Below are positions 18,871 to 42,015 of a DNA stretch of 42,015 bases, in pieces (within the stretch, counting starts at the first letter, position 1; each line of letters starts with the position of its first letter). A model generated the notes under the pieces. The model did no database searches and was not told the DNA's origin. It saw nothing but the letters and a program-made list of their open reading frames with translations. This DNA comes from a virus. The stretch spans positions 1 through 42,015 of IMG/VR virus record IMGVR_UViG_3300029914_000061. One strand, given 5' to 3'. The translations under genes were made by a program, and so were the position numbers.

Positions 18871-19335
18871 ATGGCTTTGACCTACCAGCGCGAGCGTTTT
18901 GTTGATTTAATGCCAGAACTGCCGGAGATTTTTTACAAGCATTGGCAGGACATAGCTCTTAACAAAGACGCCATTCCCCTTGATCCCGCATGGAAAGAGT
19001 ACATGCGTCTGGAAACGATTGGGGTGCTCCATGTCACTACTGCACGCGACGGAGAAAAACTGGCAGGCTATATCTTTTCTCTTGTTACCCCCCATCTTCA
19101 CTATGCTAAATCCCTAACTGCTTACACCGACCTAATGTATCTCCGACGCGAATATACCCGTGGTTTTGCTTGGATCCCCAGATACCGCAACTTGATTAGG
19201 GCAAGTGAGAATATGTTGCGTGACATGGGAGTTCAAAAGCGGTATCTTATGACGAAGGTTTACCATGATATGACCCCGCTTTTTGAGCGTCTGGGGTATA
19301 AATTCATCGAGAAAATCTCCGCCAAACTTTTGTAG
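18871..19335 (+). CDS. GNAT-like acetyltransferase-fold virion-region protein
   Basis: 154 aa; ATG at 18871, one base after the previous stop, with only a weak ribosome site (GGTGA), so coupling is likely. The order of strands and helices (LAGYIFSLVTPHLHYAKSLT, LMYLRREYTRGF, NLIRASENMLRDMGVQKRYL, LFERLGYKFIEK) is that of GNAT N-acetyltransferases; F-E-R-L-G-Y-K near the end is a typical GNAT signature. Related proteins occur in the internal-virion gene block of podoviruses (T7 gp13 position). Whether it is an enzyme or a structural relative is not known. Confidence 0.7.
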   Translation: MALTYQRERFVDLMPELPEIFYKHWQDIALNKDAIPLDPAWKEYMRLETIGVLHVTTARDGEKLAGYIFSLVTPHLHYAKSLTAYTDLMYLRREYTRGFAWIPRYRNLIRASENMLRDMGVQKRYLMTKVYHDMTPLFERLGYKFIEKISAKLL

Positions 19336-19343
19336 GGGCTAAG

Positions 19344-20342
19344 ATGGGCAGTTCCATATCGAGCTTAATTGGGGGATCTCCTTCTACTCCCAATTTGCAG
19401 ACCTATCAGCCGCAGTACACTTCGCAGGCGGATACGGGTGCGTTTACGGGCATCCAGAGCATTGCCAATAACAACCCCTATTTGCAAAACCAGGGGGCTT
19501 ATCAGGCAACCCTGCAAGCCGGCTTAAATGACCCATACGCGGCGGGCGTCCAGACTGCGGCAAACACGGCGGGCCAGCAGTATGCCGCACTGGGTACGCA
19601 AGGCATGGCCGACAGCACTGCTTTGAATGCGGGTGCGATGTCGCTTCTTCCTTACGTCTCGCAGGTGGAAAACACCGCGATGGATCCGCAGAATGCGCTT
19701 TATAACCAGAACCTGACAGCGGTGCAAAATCAGGCCAACGTTTCAAACGCGCAGAACGGTCTTACCGGATCTCCGTTTGGCGCGGGGAATACCAACCAAG
19801 CAACGACGAATTACAACATTGACTGGAACGCTGCGAAGCTGGCAAATCAGACATCCGGCTTGGCTTCTGCGTCGTCTGGGATCAACTCGGCAGGTGCCGG
19901 CATGACGACGGCGGCCAACTTGGGCGGGACTGCGGCCACCAATACGGCGCTGTCCGGCGCTGTGCCGAATGTTGCTTATCAGTCCAATTTGACTAACCAG
20001 AACAACGCGTTGAACACTTATGGCACTGCCATGACAAACGCGAATAACAATACAAACACGGCGGTGCAGGATTTCTTGGCATATATGGGCCAAGGCGAAA
20101 ACCAAGCAAATGTTCAGGCTAGCTTGAACCAGACGAATTACACAAACCAGTTGGCCGCTTCCGCTGCACAAAACCAATCAATCGACAATTTGACGAGCGC
20201 GGGGCTGAACGGGATATTGGGTGCTACTGGAGCCTCGTCTCCGGTGACTACCAGCACGACGGGCGGAACCACGACTTCGACGCCTGCAGCCGGCTCAACG
20301 GCAAATCAGATCGGCGCTTGGCTGGCAACACTTTTCAAGTAA
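19344..20342 (+). CDS. Internal virion (ejection)-type protein, N/Q/A-rich
   Basis: 332 aa from ATG at 19344 behind AGGGGCTAAG. It is dominated by Asn, Gln, Ala and Thr (QNNALNTYGTAMTNANNNTN) with helical repeats and few charged residues. It is the first of three consecutive large proteins without enzymatic motifs placed after the tail and lysis genes, the position of P22 gp7/gp20/gp16 and T7 gp14-16, which leave the head with the DNA and cross the envelope. Assigned by synteny and composition. Confidence 0.6.
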   Translation: MGSSISSLIGGSPSTPNLQTYQPQYTSQADTGAFTGIQSIANNNPYLQNQGAYQATLQAGLNDPYAAGVQTAANTAGQQYAALGTQGMADSTALNAGAMSLLPYVSQVENTAMDPQNALYNQNLTAVQNQANVSNAQNGLTGSPFGAGNTNQATTNYNIDWNAAKLANQTSGLASASSGINSAGAGMTTAANLGGTAATNTALSGAVPNVAYQSNLTNQNNALNTYGTAMTNANNNTNTAVQDFLAYMGQGENQANVQASLNQTNYTNQLAASAAQNQSIDNLTSAGLNGILGATGASSPVTTSTTGGTTTSTPAAGSTANQIGAWLATLFK

Positions 20343-23551: not shown

Positions 23552-23568
23552 ACGAAAAGGATCACGCC

Positions 23569-24879
23569 TTGAAAATCCTCGTCATTGATAAATTCGCCGG
23601 CTCCCTCGACTGGACAATGCGATGCATCGCCGACGGCCACCAAGTCAAGTGGTACGTTCCTAACGATGAGAAAGTCGCATTGGTTGGCAAAGGCATCGTG
23701 GAGCGCATCTCCGATCCACGCGAGTGGTATCGTTGGGCCGACATGATTATGTTTACTGACAATACCAAGTGGATGCACGAAGCCGCCTCTTGGCGCGCTG
23801 CCGGCTGGCCGGTTATCTCTGCGGGCATCGCGGGGGCTGATTGGGAACTGAAGCGGGCCGTTGGCATGGACGTGCTCAAAAAGGCCGGCATAAAAGTTGC
23901 CGACAGTAAGCCGTTCACCACCTACGATCCGGCCATTGCCTACGTCAAAAAAGAGATGCGGAGGTTTGTTTCGAAGCCGGACAGCGATGACAACAAAGCC
24001 CTGTCGTATTGCGCCAAGACGCCAGCCGATATGGTTTACATGCTCGAACGGTGGAAACGCAACAAGACGCTGAAGGGCAATTTTATCCTTCAGGAATTTA
24101 CCAGCGGCACCGAGATGGCCGTCGGCGGCTGGTTTGGCCCCGGCGGGTTCAATCGTGGCTGGTGCGAGAATTTCGAGTTTAAAAAGCTTATGAACGGGGA
24201 TCTTGGCGTCGCTACGGGCGAGCAGGGCACTGTCGTTCGGCATGTGGCTAAGTCCTTATTGGCAGACAAAGTTTTGAAGCCAGTCGAAAGTCAACTGGAA
24301 AAAATCAACTACGTGGGGTATATTGACGTTAATTGCATTATTGACGAAGAAGGCACCCCTTGGCCACTAGAATTTACGATGCGCCCGGGCTGGCCGCTTT
24401 TCAATATACAGCAAGCGGTGCACAAGGGAGATCACGCAGAATGGTTGCTGCAACTGTACGAGGGCAAGGACGCTCGGAACTTCGAGCTGGACACGGTGAC
24501 GGTCGGGGTGGTGATGTCGATCCCGGATTACCCTTACAGCCATTTGACGCGGAAGGAAGTGAACGGAGTGCCGCTGTATGGAATGACGCCATCAATCGAG
24601 CCCTCGGTGCATCCGTGCGAGATGATGTTGACCGATGCACCTCACGAGGTGAATGGCAAGATCGTGACGAGGGAATGCCTAGCGTCGGCGGGGGATTATG
24701 TGCTGGTGACGACGGGTACGGGGGATACGATAACGGAGGCTCAAAAAGGAGCCTATCGGGTCTTGAAGAAATTGAGCATGCCCAACTCCCCGATGTATCG
24801 AACCGACATTGGGCAGCGCCTGAAGAAGCAACTGCCGGGGATACAGAGCTTAGGGTACGCCGCGAATTTGAAGTTTTAG
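23569..24879 (+). CDS. PurD-like ATP-grasp enzyme (phosphoribosylamine-glycine ligase family)
   Basis: 436 aa; start TTG at 23569 with AAAAGGATCACGCC upstream. The N-terminus MKILVIDKFAGSLDW is the Rossmann-like start of PurD-type ligases. ATP-grasp elements are visible: FVSKPDSDDNKAL (about 135-147; candidate ATP-binding lysine), FILQEFTSGTEMAVGGWF (about 170-187; PurD has EEFLxGxE), and GYIDVNCIIDEEGTPWPLEF (about 253-272), the metal-binding strand pair, followed by T-M-R-P-G-W-P. PurD joins phosphoribosylamine and glycine in purine synthesis; a phage relative could instead ligate another amine and acid. It sits at the end of the virion block. The substrate is unknown. Confidence 0.72.
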   Translation: MKILVIDKFAGSLDWTMRCIADGHQVKWYVPNDEKVALVGKGIVERISDPREWYRWADMIMFTDNTKWMHEAASWRAAGWPVISAGIAGADWELKRAVGMDVLKKAGIKVADSKPFTTYDPAIAYVKKEMRRFVSKPDSDDNKALSYCAKTPADMVYMLERWKRNKTLKGNFILQEFTSGTEMAVGGWFGPGGFNRGWCENFEFKKLMNGDLGVATGEQGTVVRHVAKSLLADKVLKPVESQLEKINYVGYIDVNCIIDEEGTPWPLEFTMRPGWPLFNIQQAVHKGDHAEWLLQLYEGKDARNFELDTVTVGVVMSIPDYPYSHLTRKEVNGVPLYGMTPSIEPSVHPCEMMLTDAPHEVNGKIVTRECLASAGDYVLVTTGTGDTITEAQKGAYRVLKKLSMPNSPMYRTDIGQRLKKQLPGIQSLGYAANLKF

Positions 24880-24947
24880 AGGCGGATCCTAACAAACTCG
24901 ACAAGGCGGTAGACCTCTCGCTGGACACCGCTCTGGATATTCTGGAA

Positions 24948-25139
24948 ATGGAATATCTGCCCACGTCACACAGCGATTACATGAAGCAGCTAACCCTGAA
25001 GAAGGACACTGCTGTGGCCCTTATAGGCGCAGGGCTGAAGGCCGACGAGAACCGCTTCCGTCGCAAACAGCAGGACGTGATCGCACGGCTCTTTGAAGCT
25101 GTGCAGCGGGACAATAAACTCATTACCATTGACCAATAA
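24948..25139 (+). CDS. Small helical protein at the end of the rightward unit, start unresolved
   Basis: The reading frame is protein-like from about 24855 (EFEVLEADPNKLDKAVDLSL) to the stop at 25139, all helical and charged (KKDTAVALIGAGLKADENRF). In that frame no ATG, GTG or TTG lies between 24677 and 24948, so I give the ATG at 24948 (63 aa, weak ribosome site). Translation may begin upstream within the PurD-like gene (ATG 24675) or by a shift at its end. A helical protein of this kind might be a terminase small subunit, which is otherwise not identified; this is a guess. A strong terminator follows immediately. Confidence 0.5.
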   Translation: MEYLPTSHSDYMKQLTLKKDTAVALIGAGLKADENRFRRKQQDVIARLFEAVQRDNKLITIDQ

Positions 25140-25171
25140 AAATCCCCGGGAACTTTCGCGCCCGGGGATTT
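25140..25171. terminator. Bidirectional terminator between convergent units
   Basis: AAATCCCCGGG (25140-25150) and CCCGGGGATTT (25161-25171) form a perfect 11-bp stem with a 10-base loop. An A-tract on the left (CAATAAAAAT) gives a T-run for leftward transcripts, and ATTTCGTTCT gives a weaker one for rightward transcripts. It starts one base after the last rightward stop and lies 25 bp beyond the last leftward stop, so it ends both units. Confidence 0.92.
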
Positions 25172-25195: not shown

Positions 25196-25894
25196 TCACG
25201 TACCAAGAGCAATCAAGGGGATTGCCAAGGCGGTATTGAGTGCGAAGCCTGCCGAGGGGAAAGCTGCCGGCAGGGCCGCGTAAGTGAACGTGGCAGTCAC
25301 ACCCGAAGTTTCTTCCGCCGAAGTAGCGTAGAAGTTCGACAACGAAGCGGAACCAACGTTGGCATTGAGCGCAGGCGTATAACTCGCGGCAACCGCACCG
25401 ACGGTAGGCATGGTCGATGAAGCTGAAAACGTGGAAGCCGCCCAATACCAGCCGGGAGCCAGATTGAGTGCCGTCGCATAGGTTGCGGTAATAGCTGTGG
25501 TGGAGGCCGTAGCCGCCAGAGCGCCGCTATCAGAGCCAGTAACCAAGACGCCGGGAGCGCCGTTCACGTCGGTATAGAGACCAACGTGCGCCGCGCCGCC
25601 TGTTTGGCCCGTGCCGCTGTAGAACGAGATCGTTTTGATCGCGGCATTGCCGGGGATGTAAACAGGATAGGCATAGATCGTGGAAGCGGTGGTCAGCAAA
25701 GTGCCGGGCGTAGCGCCGGGAGGCAAACCATAGAAGCGGCTGGCCGCGAACGGCGTAGCTTGGCCCGTGCTTTCGGGATTGGCCACAGCAGCGAGATTGG
25801 CATTAAACTGGTTGATGACGTTGTTGAATTCGTTCAACACATCAAAGCCGGGGATTGGCGTCGTGTATACGGGTACGGGGGTATAAACCAACAT
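25196..25894 (-). CDS. Beta-rich virion- or lectin-like protein at end of leftward unit
   Basis: 232 aa from ATG at 25894 behind AAAGGAAATAATC. A short N-terminal helical part (FDVLNEFNNVINQFNANLAA) is followed by a sandwich-like domain rich in T, A, S and G (IPGNAAIKTISFYSGTGQTG; HVGLYTDVNGAPGVLVTG; LNLAPGWYWAASTF). This pattern recalls carbohydrate-binding or fibre-tip domains of phage virions. It is the only such protein encoded in the leftward, replication-type unit, just downstream of the primase. A fibre accessory or receptor-binding role is likely but unproven. Confidence 0.6.
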   Translation of the reverse strand: MLVYTPVPVYTTPIPGFDVLNEFNNVINQFNANLAAVANPESTGQATPFAASRFYGLPPGATPGTLLTTASTIYAYPVYIPGNAAIKTISFYSGTGQTGGAAHVGLYTDVNGAPGVLVTGSDSGALAATASTTAITATYATALNLAPGWYWAASTFSASSTMPTVGAVAASYTPALNANVGSASLSNFYATSAEETSGVTATFTYAALPAAFPSAGFALNTALAIPLIALGT

Positions 25895-25943: not shown

Positions 25944-28787
25944 TTACACGGCTTTGGCATGCAAGGGAAGCACCTCTTTTAGGAAGACGTCGCCCACTTG
26001 CGGGTGGCTCATATCGACCTCCCAACAAGGCACTTTGCCGCCCGGAACATCCAAGCCGGCATTAAGCGAGGTGCGGCGCGCGCGATCGAGCAAGATCTGT
26101 TGTGCCTCCAATTCGTTAACAACCATTTGATAGGGTTGCCCCAATTCGTTAAGTTTGTTGCGGATCCAGTTGGTGGACACATAAAGGCGCTTTCCGGCGA
26201 TTTCATATCGCATGTGTGTCTCGCGGGTAGGCCGCTGGCAGACAATGGTTTGCTGGCGCGGGTGGAAGGGCTTATCAACGATCAAGCAATCGCTGATATA
26301 GCTCTCATAGATGATTTCGAGCAACGACTGGACAGGCTCGAAGCGGGTAACGCCCTTGGCCAACTGCATGACCTCTTTAAGCGCCCACTCGATGATCCGC
26401 TCGACCGAGAATTCCATCAGGCCCATGTGCTTGCAGATCATGCCGGCCACGGCCACGGAAGCCACGAGGCGGATCACGTAACGGTGGGAGGTTTGGGCAC
26501 TCGTAACGGAGGTGTAATGCTCGATCAGGCGCTTAATCTGTGTGCGACAGTAATCAATCACGCCCGGCTGCAGCAGATAAGAAATATAGGCACGGCCCGC
26601 ATAGCCCCGGTTCATAATCAAGCTGTCGCCAAGATCACCGTCGATCGCAAACACGACGTCCTTGGGAACCTTCATCTCGACTTCAAACACGCGGTTGGAT
26701 AAGGGATCATCGCCCGCGCGCTGGCAGCAGTTGATCGCATCAACCAGCGACTTATTGGATGCCGAGATCAGGATGTTTTTCCACGTCAAGTCGATCGGGT
26801 TTACGGAGCCATCAACGCGGCCACGGTGTTTGTCGCGCCCGCCGGTATAGCTTTCCACGAATTCAGCGATCAGTTCAGGGTGCCGGCTGCGCAACTCGTC
26901 AAAATTTACCGGAATGTTATTCAGTACGCCGATGGTACGGAATTTAGCGACTTGGGTATCCGACGACAGCAGCCGGATTGCATCGAGCTCTCCCCAAACG
27001 CTGGCAATGGCCGTCAGCGCGGTTGACTTACCCTTACCGCCTTCGGGGCTGACAAGAGAAAGAATGGCACCACCTTCGCCGGGAGGCGTGACAAGGGCGA
27101 TCAGCGGAGAGGCAAAGGAGGCCAAAAGCGCGAAACTCTGGGCTTCGCAGCCATCGACAAACAGGCGATTGGCCACCGCGCTCCACTTGGTCAAACTGCC
27201 CATGCGGCTGGGTTGTAGCTTTTTGCCGCGCAGGGTGCACTCATTGTTGCCCGCTGCCGACTCCTTGCTGCCGTCGGACTTATAAACAGTGCCCGCTAAA
27301 TAAAATGCCGAGAAGTCGTCTTTCCAGCCAAACTGGTCATATCGCATGGCTCGATCCTTTCCTACGAGTTGGGTATATGCCGCACCAACATACCTTAAAA
27401 ATAATTTGCGCGTTTCTGGGTCAAGCATGACCGCACCGTGTTCAGCAAGTTCGCCCCACGAGCCCATGCTTGTCAGTGTCTTTGCGCTAAGCTCGAACTC
27501 AACCCATCCAGCGAATGGCTCCCATTGGCGGAAGAAAAGGCCCTGCTTGCGCTCTGTCTCTCCATCGCGCACTTCCGAGAGGTAAATGGGATGGTTGGTA
27601 AAAGGCTTGTGGTAAGACTTTTCCGTGCCCTTTTCGTCTTTGTATTTTATCTCGATAGTAATTTGGTATTTAGCATTCATCCCATAGCCGGGCGGCAGAG
27701 GCGGAAATGTCTCGCCTGCACCGGCGGCCACTGTTGCTGCTGCTTCCTTTTGGACGCGCCCCAACACGATAGGGCTGGTAACCGCAAACGGGCAGCCCGC
27801 ACAGCCGGAAGGATTTAGGGACTTAAATCGTTCGCAGGTTGTAGGCCCGCTCGCTGCTTTAGCCTGACTAAACTTCCGATCAGTTTCGTCGGGTGTATAG
27901 GAAGGGTACCCTGAAGACCACTCGTGAGCACATGAATGCCCGTCTGCGCAGTGGGCGAGCACTCCCAGCCCTGCATACCATAAAGGCTCTGAGATATTCC
28001 CCCGCGCGTCCCTAAAACCGCGTAGCTGTGCGCATTGAGAAACAGCGACATTTGCATTGGATGGCTCCGCGTTTGTGTAAATCGCACTGGCGGCTTTGCC
28101 TATGTCCCCGAATTCTGAGAAGGAGGGAATTTCTGCTGCCGCAGAAGTTCCGATAAAACTGCTTTCTGTTCCGGCGACATTCTCATTTGCACTTGCGCCG
28201 GAGAAAGCATGGGTGTCGGGCATGAGTTCAAGGCACTCAACAGGGCGGGGATTGTTTTGTATTTTATAGTTGTACGTTCCCGGAGCCCGAAGGATAGAAC
28301 TGACATCCGAAGTTCTGCTGCTGTCAGCGTCAAGTCCGTTAGTTGCAGCGAGAACTTTGAAAGCCTTTGCCTTGGCTGTCCATTCGGACGCTGCAAAGCA
28401 TCTATCATTCCGCCAATAGCAGTGAACACCCCCACCGGAATATACGATCGTGGGGTAAGGCAGTTGTACCTTGTCGCAAAACACATCAACCGCTGCGCAC
28501 GCAGCGTCAGCATTCGGATACGGCTTTCCTTCTCCCGCGTCGATGTCCAGCCAAAAGCTTTGAACAAACTGCGCATTTTCCTGCCTCCTGTTGCCCGGCT
28601 CTTTATACGTCGCACACGCAAAATAGGCATCCCACCCCAACGCATCAATGCGTTGCAGGACTTCCGCCATATTTTCAACCGACTGTGTAAAGCCTTGCTG
28701 AGGGCGCTCGCCCTTTTTCAGCGCAACCCAACACTTATACCCGTCGCTTGGAAGAACGTGCCTTAGAAACTCTACCAGAGACACCAT
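25944..28787 (-). CDS. Primase-helicase fusion (AEP-type primase, PriCT-like zinc region, DUF927-like ATPase)
   Basis: 947 aa from ATG at 28787 (start MVSLVEFLRHVLPSDGY; the frame is open further but shadows the neighbour). Primase part: WLDID with the DxD pair (81, 83), then SGGGVHCYW (117-125) and RTSDVSSILRAPG (159-170), the three motifs of archaeo-eukaryotic-type primases. Residues 318-332 hold C-x10-C-x2-C ahead of TSPIVLG, as in PriCT-type phage primases. The C-terminal half is a DUF927-like helicase with Walker A PEGGKGKST (581-589) and Walker B-like IPVNFDE (625-631). It would unwind and prime DNA at the phage fork. It overlaps the upstream HTH-like gene by 53 bp. Confidence 0.85.
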   Translation of the reverse strand: MVSLVEFLRHVLPSDGYKCWVALKKGERPQQGFTQSVENMAEVLQRIDALGWDAYFACATYKEPGNRRQENAQFVQSFWLDIDAGEGKPYPNADAACAAVDVFCDKVQLPYPTIVYSGGGVHCYWRNDRCFAASEWTAKAKAFKVLAATNGLDADSSRTSDVSSILRAPGTYNYKIQNNPRPVECLELMPDTHAFSGASANENVAGTESSFIGTSAAAEIPSFSEFGDIGKAASAIYTNAEPSNANVAVSQCAQLRGFRDARGNISEPLWYAGLGVLAHCADGHSCAHEWSSGYPSYTPDETDRKFSQAKAASGPTTCERFKSLNPSGCAGCPFAVTSPIVLGRVQKEAAATVAAGAGETFPPLPPGYGMNAKYQITIEIKYKDEKGTEKSYHKPFTNHPIYLSEVRDGETERKQGLFFRQWEPFAGWVEFELSAKTLTSMGSWGELAEHGAVMLDPETRKLFLRYVGAAYTQLVGKDRAMRYDQFGWKDDFSAFYLAGTVYKSDGSKESAAGNNECTLRGKKLQPSRMGSLTKWSAVANRLFVDGCEAQSFALLASFASPLIALVTPPGEGGAILSLVSPEGGKGKSTALTAIASVWGELDAIRLLSSDTQVAKFRTIGVLNNIPVNFDELRSRHPELIAEFVESYTGGRDKHRGRVDGSVNPIDLTWKNILISASNKSLVDAINCCQRAGDDPLSNRVFEVEMKVPKDVVFAIDGDLGDSLIMNRGYAGRAYISYLLQPGVIDYCRTQIKRLIEHYTSVTSAQTSHRYVIRLVASVAVAGMICKHMGLMEFSVERIIEWALKEVMQLAKGVTRFEPVQSLLEIIYESYISDCLIVDKPFHPRQQTIVCQRPTRETHMRYEIAGKRLYVSTNWIRNKLNELGQPYQMVVNELEAQQILLDRARRTSLNAGLDVPGGKVPCWEVDMSHPQVGDVFLKEVLPLHAKAV

Positions 28788-29043
28788 CGAGAACCTGCTG
28801 CAAATAGTTTTTACGTTCGTACTGAGTAATGGAGATCGGGACGGGGAAGTTCTTCCCGGCTTTGATCGCCTTTTCCAGCAGGTCAAGCTTCGTGATGATC
28901 TGAGAGTGGCGGCATTCATGGGGGGTTACCCCATGAAGCCACGTCTCCATGGTACGACGCTGGATGCCAAACCAGTGTCCCATATCAGCGATCGAAAGCT
29001 CGGCCTTACCCTTGGCTGAGATTAAACGGTCGTTGATGTCCAT
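28735..29043 (-). CDS. 102-aa HTH-like protein before primase
   Basis: ATG at 29043 overlaps the stop of the SSB-like gene. The segment ELSIADMGHWFGIQRRTMET then WLHG resembles a helix-turn-helix (A-D-M-x-x-W-F-G-x-x-x-x-T-x-x-x-W), followed by basic helical sequence and a strongly basic C-terminus (VSKARSSKRRV). It probably binds DNA and, from its place between SSB-like and primase-helicase genes, could be a replication loader or initiator as well as a regulator. Function not settled. Confidence 0.6.
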   Translation of the reverse strand: MDINDRLISAKGKAELSIADMGHWFGIQRRTMETWLHGVTPHECRHSQIITKLDLLEKAIKAGKNFPVPISITQYERKNYLQQVLDGVSGRVSKARSSKRRV

Positions 29044-39683: not shown

Positions 39684-40196
39684 TTAGCCCTCCCTCTTTC
39701 CGTTTTTGTCAAAGGTGTATTCGTTGGCCCGAATGCCTTCTTCCAAGTACTCGCGCGAGGACATATAATCGGCTTCCTTTTGCAACATGCTTGCATACTC
39801 TTCCAGAATGGCGCGGAGAAACTCGCTGGCCAGTTCCTCCAACTCGTCCTCTGTCTCGGAAAAATCGTCGCTGTCCGGCATGCCGTCAACGATAGCTTTA
39901 ACCTTGGCCAGATAATCCTTGGCTGTTTTATAGCTGCCGCAAGTTTCCCCGTGCTCTTCCAAAATCTTTTCCGCACATGCGTCGGCGTGATTAATAAAAT
40001 CGCCTTCGGCGCGCTTGTTCCGGTCAAGATCAAAGCTCGTTATTCTTATGCCAACATGCGCGGCATCGTCATACGTGCTTTGCCACCATTCATTGTCAAA
40101 AGCTCCTTCTAAATACCAATTAAGCGCGCGCTCTTTGGCCTTTTCAGTTGGCAATTCGTCATATTCATAAACCGTTTTTGTGATTGTTTTAGGCAT
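39684..40196 (-). CDS. 170-aa phage protein (antitoxin-like family of unknown function)
   Basis: ATG at 40196 behind AAAGGAAAGTACC; ATG at 40223 is a possible alternative. The start MPKTITKTVYEYDELPTEKA, then KERALNWYLEGAFDNEWW, fits a small-protein family common in phages that is sometimes labelled antitoxin without proof. The rest is a helical domain (DYLAKVKAIVDGMPDSDDFS) with acidic character. The left edge of the right-hand terminal repeat (39943) cuts through this gene, which is why the left copy is partial. Confidence 0.75.
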   Translation of the reverse strand: MPKTITKTVYEYDELPTEKAKERALNWYLEGAFDNEWWQSTYDDAAHVGIRITSFDLDRNKRAEGDFINHADACAEKILEEHGETCGSYKTAKDYLAKVKAIVDGMPDSDDFSETEDELEELASEFLRAILEEYASMLQKEADYMSSREYLEEGIRANEYTFDKNGKREG

Positions 40197-40237
40197 GGTA
40201 CTTTCCTTTTTTTGTGTGGTCATGATCTTTGCCCCTT

Positions 40238-40324
40238 TTAGTTTGAGTAAACCGCGCGTAGCACTGTGGCCACAAACACGATCAAGAAAGTAATCCCGCC
40301 CGCTAGGGCTTCGCCGCGCGTCAT
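40238..40324 (-). CDS. 28-aa single-membrane-helix microprotein (right copy)
   Basis: Right-hand copy of the gene at 296-382, with identical sequence. Here it connects the 80-aa gene to the complete 170-aa gene. Its ATG overlaps the TGA of the 80-aa gene. Confidence 0.65.
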   Translation of the reverse strand: MTRGEALAGGITFLIVFVATVLRAVYSN

Positions 40325-40563
40325 ATTACTTTACCAGTGCTGAAAACTTCGATTGCGCTGCGCGGGCAGTGGTATGCTTTCTCAAGCTGTTCTTTCGCGT
40401 CCTCAATGCTTGCCGCCGCTAGGGACACTTTAAGCGCGGGCTTGCCCGTACTGTCAGGAGGTATGAAGCCAATGAAGCGGTAGCACTGAAAGGCCACAGG
40501 CTTGCCCTTAGGCTTGCGGGCGTGGTAGACCATTGTTGCTTCGTAATGGTTAGATGTTTTCAT
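40321..40563 (-). CDS. 80-aa phage protein of unknown function (right copy)
   Basis: Right-hand copy of 379-621, identical, with the same upstream promoter and paired TTGCATAGTGAA sites at 40564-40648. In a linear genome this is the copy joined to the leftward transcription unit. Confidence 0.75.
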   Translation of the reverse strand: MKTSNHYEATMVYHARKPKGKPVAFQCYRFIGFIPPDSTGKPALKVSLAAASIEDAKEQLEKAYHCPRSAIEVFSTGKVI

Positions 40564-40648
40564 TTTAGCACCTTTTGTTACCTTTTAGTGTACTTGTTAC
40601 CGTTCACTATGCAAGGATCATAGTTTATAGCTATTCACTATGCAAGGA
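40564..40648 (-). promoter_or_regulatory. Right copy of promoter with paired operator-like sites
   Basis: Identical to 622-706: minus-strand TTGCAT, 17 bp, TATGAT, with TTGCATAGTGAA copies at 40603-40617 and 40634-40648. Confidence 0.6.
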
Positions 40649-40930
40649 CATAATGGGTAATTTTATTGCTTTTTGCAAAATATCCCGCGAGGCCCGCGCT
40701 ATGGCCGGATAAGCTTCGCGCGGTATCATGCGCCGCCCTGTCGCGCACTGGTAGACCATAGCAGGGCTAAGCGCCACGATGTTCTCAAGCTCGCGCACAC
40801 TTAGCCCCTTGCTATGCGGCAGGTCAAGGTCACTAAGAGCAAGCAACACGCGCCGATACAGCTCGTTTGTAGGGTTATTCGTTCGCCAGCTCAACAGTTG
40901 CTTGGCCCGCTGCCGCTTAGTTTTGACCAT
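40631..40930 (-). CDS. 99-aa helix-turn-helix-like regulator (right copy)
   Basis: Right-hand copy of 689-988, identical in protein sequence. It overlaps the 64-aa HTH gene by 14 bp as in the left copy. Confidence 0.6.
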   Translation of the reverse strand: MVKTKRQRAKQLLSWRTNNPTNELYRRVLLALSDLDLPHSKGLSVRELENIVALSPAMVYQCATGRRMIPREAYPAIARASRDILQKAIKLPIMSLHSE

Positions 40931-41111
40931 TGGCTAACCTTTCAACCCAGCGCTCTATTTCCGGCCAGTGCTTGGACGGGATAGGATATTTATGCCGGAA
41001 CCAGTTGCACACGTTCGGCTGTGTTGTGCCAAGGTATGCGGCAATATCCCCTTGCGTCCTGCCAGTTTGCACCAACAAGGCTAAATATTTATTGCTGATT
41101 TGCATGCTCAT
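40917..41111 (-). CDS. 64-aa Cro/YdaS-like HTH protein (right copy)
   Basis: Right-hand copy of 975-1169, identical. The ATG at 41111 overlaps the TGA of the 94-aa gene. Confidence 0.75.
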   Translation of the reverse strand: MSMQISNKYLALLVQTGRTQGDIAAYLGTTQPNVCNWFRHKYPIPSKHWPEIERWVERLANGQN

Positions 41112-41392
41112 GGCTTTAGCCACGGCAGCTGGGCGTCAAACTCTTTGCCAAGCGGAACAGATATGTCAATTTCTCCCAGCTGCGCAGCTTCCGCCGCCAG
41201 CTTTTTGTCCATGGGCGTTTGCTTGTATGTAGCCTCCCGCGTAACTGGCAGTTTATTTTGTGCCAAGTGCTCTACTAACACAAGGCGGGCGTATGCGGCG
41301 GGCTTCATAAATTTTTGAGCTGCAAGGCTTTCAAATTCACTTAGCCACGTCGGCGCTACGGTAATCACTAATTTAACGCTGTTTTTTTCCAT
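41108..41392 (-). CDS. 94-aa RHH-like regulator (right copy)
   Basis: Right-hand copy of 1166-1450, identical, including the AAAAGGAG ribosome site and the upstream inverted repeat (41422-41480). This is the start of the leftward unit as it appears in the linear map. Confidence 0.6.
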   Translation of the reverse strand: MEKNSVKLVITVAPTWLSEFESLAAQKFMKPAAYARLVLVEHLAQNKLPVTREATYKQTPMDKKLAAEAAQLGEIDISVPLGKEFDAQLPWLKP

Positions 41393-42015
41393 TTTTACTA
41401 CTCCTTTTTGGGGTTGATTTGAATACGTTTTATACTGGTTTTGAGTACGCTGCAACTCCTTTTTGTATACAAAACGTATTGTTTTTTACCACGGCACTTT
41501 GCATGAATGCGTGTTTTTTAGCTCAAAATGCCTGTTTTTAGCCCATGAGTGCATGTTTTTGCAAAGTGACTACGCGAGCATGGAATAATGTAACCCATTG
41601 ATTTTGCTATTGGGTAATTTTATTGCGGGTATGTGTCATAGTGAGAGGTTGCACGCATGGGCATTGAATTGTTTGGCAAATTCGCCATGAAGTACTGATT
41701 TATAACTGAATTCAAAAACAGGGGTACCCTGCACAGAAAGAAATTGCAGAAAAAGAGAAAAACAAAATTTCTCTAGTATATATGTTTTAGGATTTAGTTA
41801 TTATTATAGACATCATGGTCACACCACCACCAAAAAACTAAACAATTCAACGCCTTAAAGCCTAACACAAATAAACATTGGGCATACCCCGCTTAACCCC
41901 TTGAAACAAAACAATTTCCTTTGCGTGCATATTGAATGTAGTTAACAAAAGGTTAACAGCATTCATGCAAAGTGCATGGTTATATTTTTATTTTAAAAAA
42001 CACCATAAAATAGCT
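41393..42015. other. Right copy of the gene-free control region (partial)
   Basis: Repeats 1451-2073 with the one base change at 41891. It contains the operator pair, the AT-rich core and the GTTAAC dyad, but ends just before the rightward promoter. No gene is seen. Confidence 0.6.
41422..41480 (-). promoter_or_regulatory. Right copy of inverted-repeat operator
   Basis: Identical to 1480-1538: inverted AATACGTTTT arms and the 14-bp palindrome TTTTGTATACAAAA over the putative promoter of the RHH-like gene. Confidence 0.55.

Follow-up and report, generated by a model that had tools for sequence, protein, structure and literature searches.

A PurD-fold family of predicted ligases distinct from PurD in phage late gene blocks, with signatures of a second gene overlapping its 3' end

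The window (the whole 42,015-nucleotide stretch of viral DNA analysed here) carries, toward the end of its late gene block, an ATP-grasp protein that has the predicted fold of PurD but is not PurD. We read the gene as encoding a late-expressed, ATP-dependent carboxylate-amine ligase that would not perform the PurD reaction, and as an accessory gene overlapped by the gene of a small helical protein; the probability that we assign to this reading is about 0.6. It draws on the computed fold, the conserved and changed residues, the separation of the family, its fixed slot in phage genomes and the signatures of overlap.

Positions 1-2073 of the record are repeated directly at 39943-42015. Because these 2073-base ends match but for one mismatch, the record is probably a complete phage genome of ~39.9 kb (circular assembly) or one with a long terminal repeat. 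Genes for a large terminase, an SU10-type portal, a major head protein and an SU10-type adaptor lie in the late block, with tail genes and further late genes behind them. The replication genes, which encode a primase-helicase, an SNF2 helicase, a PDDEXK nuclease and a family A polymerase, point in the opposite direction. A helicase-based scan reached only five close relatives. The main features are listed in Table 1.

Table 1. Coordinates of the ligase gene, the candidate overlapping gene and the features around them
Feature	Position	Strand	Basis or remark
Last large late-block protein, 633 aa	21650..23551	+	directly 5' of ligase gene
Shine-Dalgarno AAGGA of ligase gene	23557..23561	+	7 nt 5' of TTG; read from sequence
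PurD-like ATP-grasp ligase (predicted), 436 aa, TTG start	23569..24879	+	open frame, profiles, predicted fold, alignment
Internal Shine-Dalgarno-like AAGGGAG, ligase codons 286-287	24424..24430	+	enriched vs synonymous shuffles
Candidate overlapping gene, 232 aa, -1 frame	24441..25139	+	open-frame, stop-depletion and start-site statistics
Hairpin, 11-bp, G+C-rich	25140..25171	+	directly 3' of overlapping gene; fold -20.3 kcal/mol, z -2.97
DUF927/primase-helicase gene, convergent	25944..28919	-	other boundary of slot in most genomes

The first-pass annotation had put the ligase gene at the end of the virion block, behind three ejection-type proteins. The gene does lie where the late block ends, although not quite in the last position, as the candidate second gene overlaps its 3' end; the ejection-type assignment found no confirmation, since family searches gave no clear match. 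Two further late proteins upstream of the ligase (154 and 332 aa, at 18871-20342) have no family match and are conserved in 38 and 50, respectively, of the viral loci fetched. The hairpin lacks a long T run and was missed by a simple terminator scan; the late operon may end there. A 232-aa open frame on the minus strand (25196-25894) occupies the interval from the hairpin to the primase gene, and this interval looks like a variable site, because the cargo genes found there differ between genomes.

The presence of an ATP-grasp protein in this frame, as first annotated, was confirmed by the open frame with its Shine-Dalgarno, by a Pfam GARS_A match (2.5e-6, above its cut-off) and by the predicted fold; relatives have an M at the place where the protein starts. 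The ATP-grasp domain covers residues 101-274, and a GARS_C-like domain covers residues 311-417, with a Pfam GARS_C match at 4.4e-8, just below its cut-off; GARS_N (PF02844) had no match in the window. The NCBIfam purD profile (TIGR00877; EC 6.3.4.13) matches the protein at 1e-19 with 70.7 bits versus 288 bits required, and the ten relatives tested score between 66 and 117 bits against the same cut-off. In the profile search that the first-pass annotation had proposed, the protein stays inside the ATP-grasp superfamily, in its PurD part. For most usable pairs dN/dS of the ligase is ~0.02-0.10 (0.18 in one distant pair); the gene is thus under strong purifying selection, which argues for a working protein.

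The AF2 model of the ligase, computed from an alignment of phage and cellular relatives, has a mean pLDDT of 93.9 and predicts an ATP-grasp fold in which the catalytic Lys and the acidic metal ligands are present. Its best PDB matches are all PurD (Z 31-36), and the alignment to the PurD fold spans residues 1-422; the PurD-like layout noticed earlier is upheld from end to end in the predicted fold, with a PurD score far under the cut-off. PurK and PurT are the next nearest folds (Z about 23-25, none above 25), but they are smaller, structurally clearly further than PurD and have no Pfam or NCBIfam profile match to the ligase. Identity with either was rejected, as all listed PurD entries outrank both.

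We compared the pockets of 60 phage and cellular members of the family to those of 14 true PurDs, the latter picked by score over the cut-off alone. Residues invariant in the 60 members include E93, R96, K136, E182, E203, K205, G217, E218, G220, N255, E268, T270, R272, G274, R411 and D413, among which E93, K136, E182, K205, E268, R272, G274, R411 and D413 are common to PurD and the ligase family. The likeness to PurD thus comprises the full-length fold, the ATP-grasp residues (K136, E182, K205 and E268), R272, whose PurD equivalent binds glycine, and a C-terminal R-x-D-I motif. Conversely, in 60/60 members a K of PurD is replaced by R96, D by E203, G by E218 and N by T270, and the D of the GDPE motif of PurD is changed as well, with the E of this motif lost. 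Moreover, a PurD E is Q or M at ligase position 175, Y-x-G of PurD is [DN]253-x-N255, TGGMG is TGE[MQ]G, and the N-terminal GxGGREH motif, which we take to be the ribose phosphate binder of PurD, is found in 14/14 PurDs and is absent from the ligase family. The metal site of the family is unusual, judging from the alignment, because the Asn that is the second Mg ligand of PurD is Thr (T270) and because position 253 is Asn instead of Asp in 10 of the 27 cellular members. PurK and PurT, likewise, are not known to have an Asn in the last metal-binding strand.

The glycine ligands of Aquifex PurD are D212, R287 and E292 (PMC8880213), corresponding by alignment to E203, R272 and the variable residue 277 of the ligase. 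Of these ligands, the Arg is retained, one of the two amine ligands has become longer (D to E) and the other is missing; because of these differences, together with the missing N-terminal motif, the ligase would be expected to use a different acid and a different amine than those used by PurD. Examination of the pocket, which the first-pass annotation had recommended, shows residues that differ from housekeeping PurD at fixed sites (60 versus 14), with the ATP site intact. Since the ATP site and the carboxylate-binding Arg are invariant, we infer an active carboxylate-amine ligase with a non-purine substrate.

The family is widespread. At least 169 relatives were found in viral contigs in one scan, the best 80 of the 169 being 53-100% identical over nearly full length, and a further 222 relatives came from bacterial and archaeal genomes searched with a profile; the latter include phage-like contigs and Paraburkholderia loci with phage structural genes nearby. 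The cellular family (~30% identity) occurs in DPANN archaea, candidate phyla, Methylocystis, Planctomycetota, Acidobacteriota, Gemmatimonadetes, Myxococcota and others. In the tree, PurD is separate (support 100), and the family consists of two cellular branches (100 and 96) and one branch with all phage loci (99); two loci labelled cellular, L092 and L093, fall inside the phage branch and lie in phage-like loci. True PurD, scoring over the cut-off, is also present in 14 of the 21 genomes with a ligase relative, and several of the other seven genomes are very small. Given the separation in the tree and this co-occurrence, the family is best read as a paralogue of PurD. A relative with 45% identity lies at the end of the structural block in a deposited phage genome, MW202796.1 (42140-43456; L081:20001-21317), where no gene is annotated. 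No description of the ligase family was found in the literature searched, which is itself only part of the literature.

It should be noted that one cellular branch adjoins genes for a Haem_oxygenas_2 (HDO-type) oxidase and an MTS methyltransferase in Methylocystis, Myxococcota, Planctomycetota and others. The oxidase was seen in 17 loci and the methyltransferase in 17 loci, mostly the same ones (for example, L107:8055-11359; related loci are L113, L128, L134, L155, L148, L111, L097, L137, L108, L103 and L115). These loci have the appearance of a biosynthetic cluster not described before. Clusters for natural products derived from amino acids, e.g., mangotoxin, are known to combine HDO enzymes with ATP-grasp ligases (PMC13185094), and the cellular sister branch resembles such clusters in its neighbours; however, these contexts are confined to the sister branches, and the phage ligase gene is without such neighbours.

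To describe the distribution among near relatives, we gathered terminase relatives irrespective of the ligase, keeping records of 40 kb or more (n = 21). The ligase gene is present in 14 and absent in 7 of them, and it is not essential, because it is missing from a third of these near relatives. Gene-order maps of 17 carriers and 7 non-carriers have one fixed slot, in which the last large late-block protein is followed by the ligase and then by the convergent replication genes. In 7/7 non-carriers the gene of the small helical protein directly follows the upstream late gene, and the absences are therefore real and clean. The portal tree requires about four gains or losses of the ligase gene, and ligase distances track terminase distances weakly (rho 0.40, versus 0.86 for terminase and portal), suggesting that the gene has been exchanged between phages into the same site. 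The upstream position is occupied elsewhere mostly by proteins of about 500-1150 aa, which belong to unrelated or remotely related families across carriers, and the same family also occurs without the ligase. A single upstream virion protein as an obligate partner is not supported on these grounds, and the variation of this neighbour among carriers does not point to any one partner protein.

The second component of our reading, which is absent from the first-pass annotation of this gene, is the frame that overlaps the last 438 nt of the ligase gene. The first ~146 codons of the predicted 232-aa protein are overprinted on the ligase C-terminal region, and the last ~86 aa form a conserved helical domain, predicted as two helices, for which no PHROG above noise and no significant Foldseek match were found. 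This conserved domain of ~85 aa, 3' of the ligase, is in the -1 frame in 70/70 loci counted, and most of these loci have no start codon near the junction between ligase and domain. In 91% of 56 dereplicated ligase genes, the 3' end has a -1 frame without stops over at least 270 nt, compared to 22% after synonymous shuffling, and the +1 frame of the same genes has no comparable openness. Stops are depleted in the -1 frame from about codon 291-300 of the ligase. A -1-frame ATG at codon 291-292 was found in 43 of the 51 open loci, with 18.8 expected (z 6.2), and Shine-Dalgarno-like motifs at codons 286 and 287 in 22/51 and 21/51 loci, with 3.9 and 7.7 expected from synonymous shuffles (z ~6). The last base of codon 291 is A in 46 of 52 cases versus 30% elsewhere (p ~3e-18, for related sequences that are not independent). 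Synonymous divergence dips modestly, to 0.75-0.9 of the expected value, at residues 330-389 and at the 3' end, and the overprinted part of the second protein has little amino-acid conservation of its own. The 47 cellular relatives have no excess of -1 openness (median 166 nt, shuffled mean 160); these relatives and the synonymous shuffles rule out the protein sequence or base composition as the source of the open frame. In Paraburkholderia prophage L087 the -1 frame is open for 445 nt, and in L089, L092 and L093 it is not open.

The alternative frame is kept open beyond expectation and has a conserved putative start site of its own. The simplest reading is a gene that starts inside the ligase gene and is probably translated as a separate protein. 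If the frame were instead read by programmed frameshifting, the product would be a fusion of the ligase and the helical domain, in line with the constant -1 frame and the frequent lack of a start codon near the junction. This is quite unlikely, because slippery heptamers are not enriched (20 found versus 34 expected); moreover, an internal ATG and Shine-Dalgarno are enriched at codon 291, about where stop depletion starts. Under the separate-gene reading, the helical C-terminal domain is most simply seen as ancestral, because non-carriers have the domain without this overlap, and the N-terminal ~146 residues would have arisen by overprinting. A few lineages are arranged otherwise, e.g., with a start codon that overlaps the ligase stop.

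We propose the following course for the reaction. ATP and Mg2+ would bind in the ATP-grasp cleft (K136, E182, K205, E268 and their neighbours), while R272 would hold a carboxylate substrate, most likely one resembling an amino acid, whose amine would lie close to E203. The carboxylate would be converted to an acyl phosphate, which would be attacked by an amine other than phosphoribosylamine to form an amide. As the acceptor, a small molecule or a peptide is most likely, and a virion or host protein less so. The gene itself would be an accessory gene, presumably expressed late, whose fixed insertion point lies between the genes of the last large late-block protein and the small helical protein. 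In most carriers, the start of the small protein would have shifted ~440 nt upstream into the ligase gene, producing the overlap in different frames.

Several other functions have to be weighed. An ordinary auxiliary metabolic gene, encoding a diverged PurD that raises purine synthesis in the infected host, would explain the PurD fold from end to end and the GARS_A and GARS_C matches. However, the GARS_N motif and the PF02844 match are absent, the equivalent of glycine ligand E292 and the GDPE motif are lost and TGGMG is changed (60/60 versus 14/14), the profile score is 70.7 of 288 bits, 14/21 genomes with a relative also hold a true PurD, and no other purine gene was recognised among the window proteins scanned. 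An auxiliary purine gene, one of the options of the first-pass annotation, is highly improbable on this evidence; the scores and the pocket motifs led us to reject an ordinary PurD. Another of its options, a repurposed ligase, is supported by the PurD fold, the intact ATP site and substrate residues that are fixed and different in 60/60 members; a modified nucleotide or a virion component as the target is less likely. Addition of an amino acid by the ligase to a modified nucleotide in phage DNA would have some precedent in the chemistry of PurD, which makes a glycinamide on a ribonucleotide. Such hypermodification is very unlikely. The window has no recognisable thymidylate synthase-like, base-modifying or deazaguanine gene, the proteins scanned include no evident nucleotide-modification partner, and the ligase gene lies among late genes and not among replication genes.

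A tentative possibility is that the ligase modifies a virion (or host) protein at a late stage of infection by attaching an amino acid or a short chain, as is known for RimK and S6 and predicted for the R2K ligases. Even in distant phages the ligase gene keeps its place immediately behind the last large late-block protein, which is consistent with such a role, and ATP-grasp peptide ligases have been predicted to modify proteins in other phages (PMC7824862, PMC4431377). The R2K ligases are also phage ATP-grasp enzymes with a sporadic distribution and a predicted amide-forming activity (PMC4431377), but ours is probably of a different family, having no Pfam R2K match at E 1. Against modification of proteins, the upstream neighbour is not constant between carriers, as described above, and the protein retains the C-terminal lid domain that belongs to the small-molecule PurD fold. 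A single functional module made up of the ligase and the overlapping gene is rather unlikely; in such a module, the helical late protein would have gained its long N-terminal tail by overprinting and would need, for itself or for its assembly step, an amide adduct made or attached by the ligase, which would represent ligase chemistry not described so far.

Under routine annotation this gene would be named purD and counted among the auxiliary genes of purine synthesis, probably wrongly. The ~440 nt that the two genes seem to share on the same strand would be a clear example of gene overlap in a dsDNA phage, and the origin of this overlap can be traced, because the second gene is free of it in relatives that lack the ligase. 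A PurD-fold family with a fixed but different pocket, common to many uncultivated phages, bacteria and archaea, represents an enzyme activity to be assigned.
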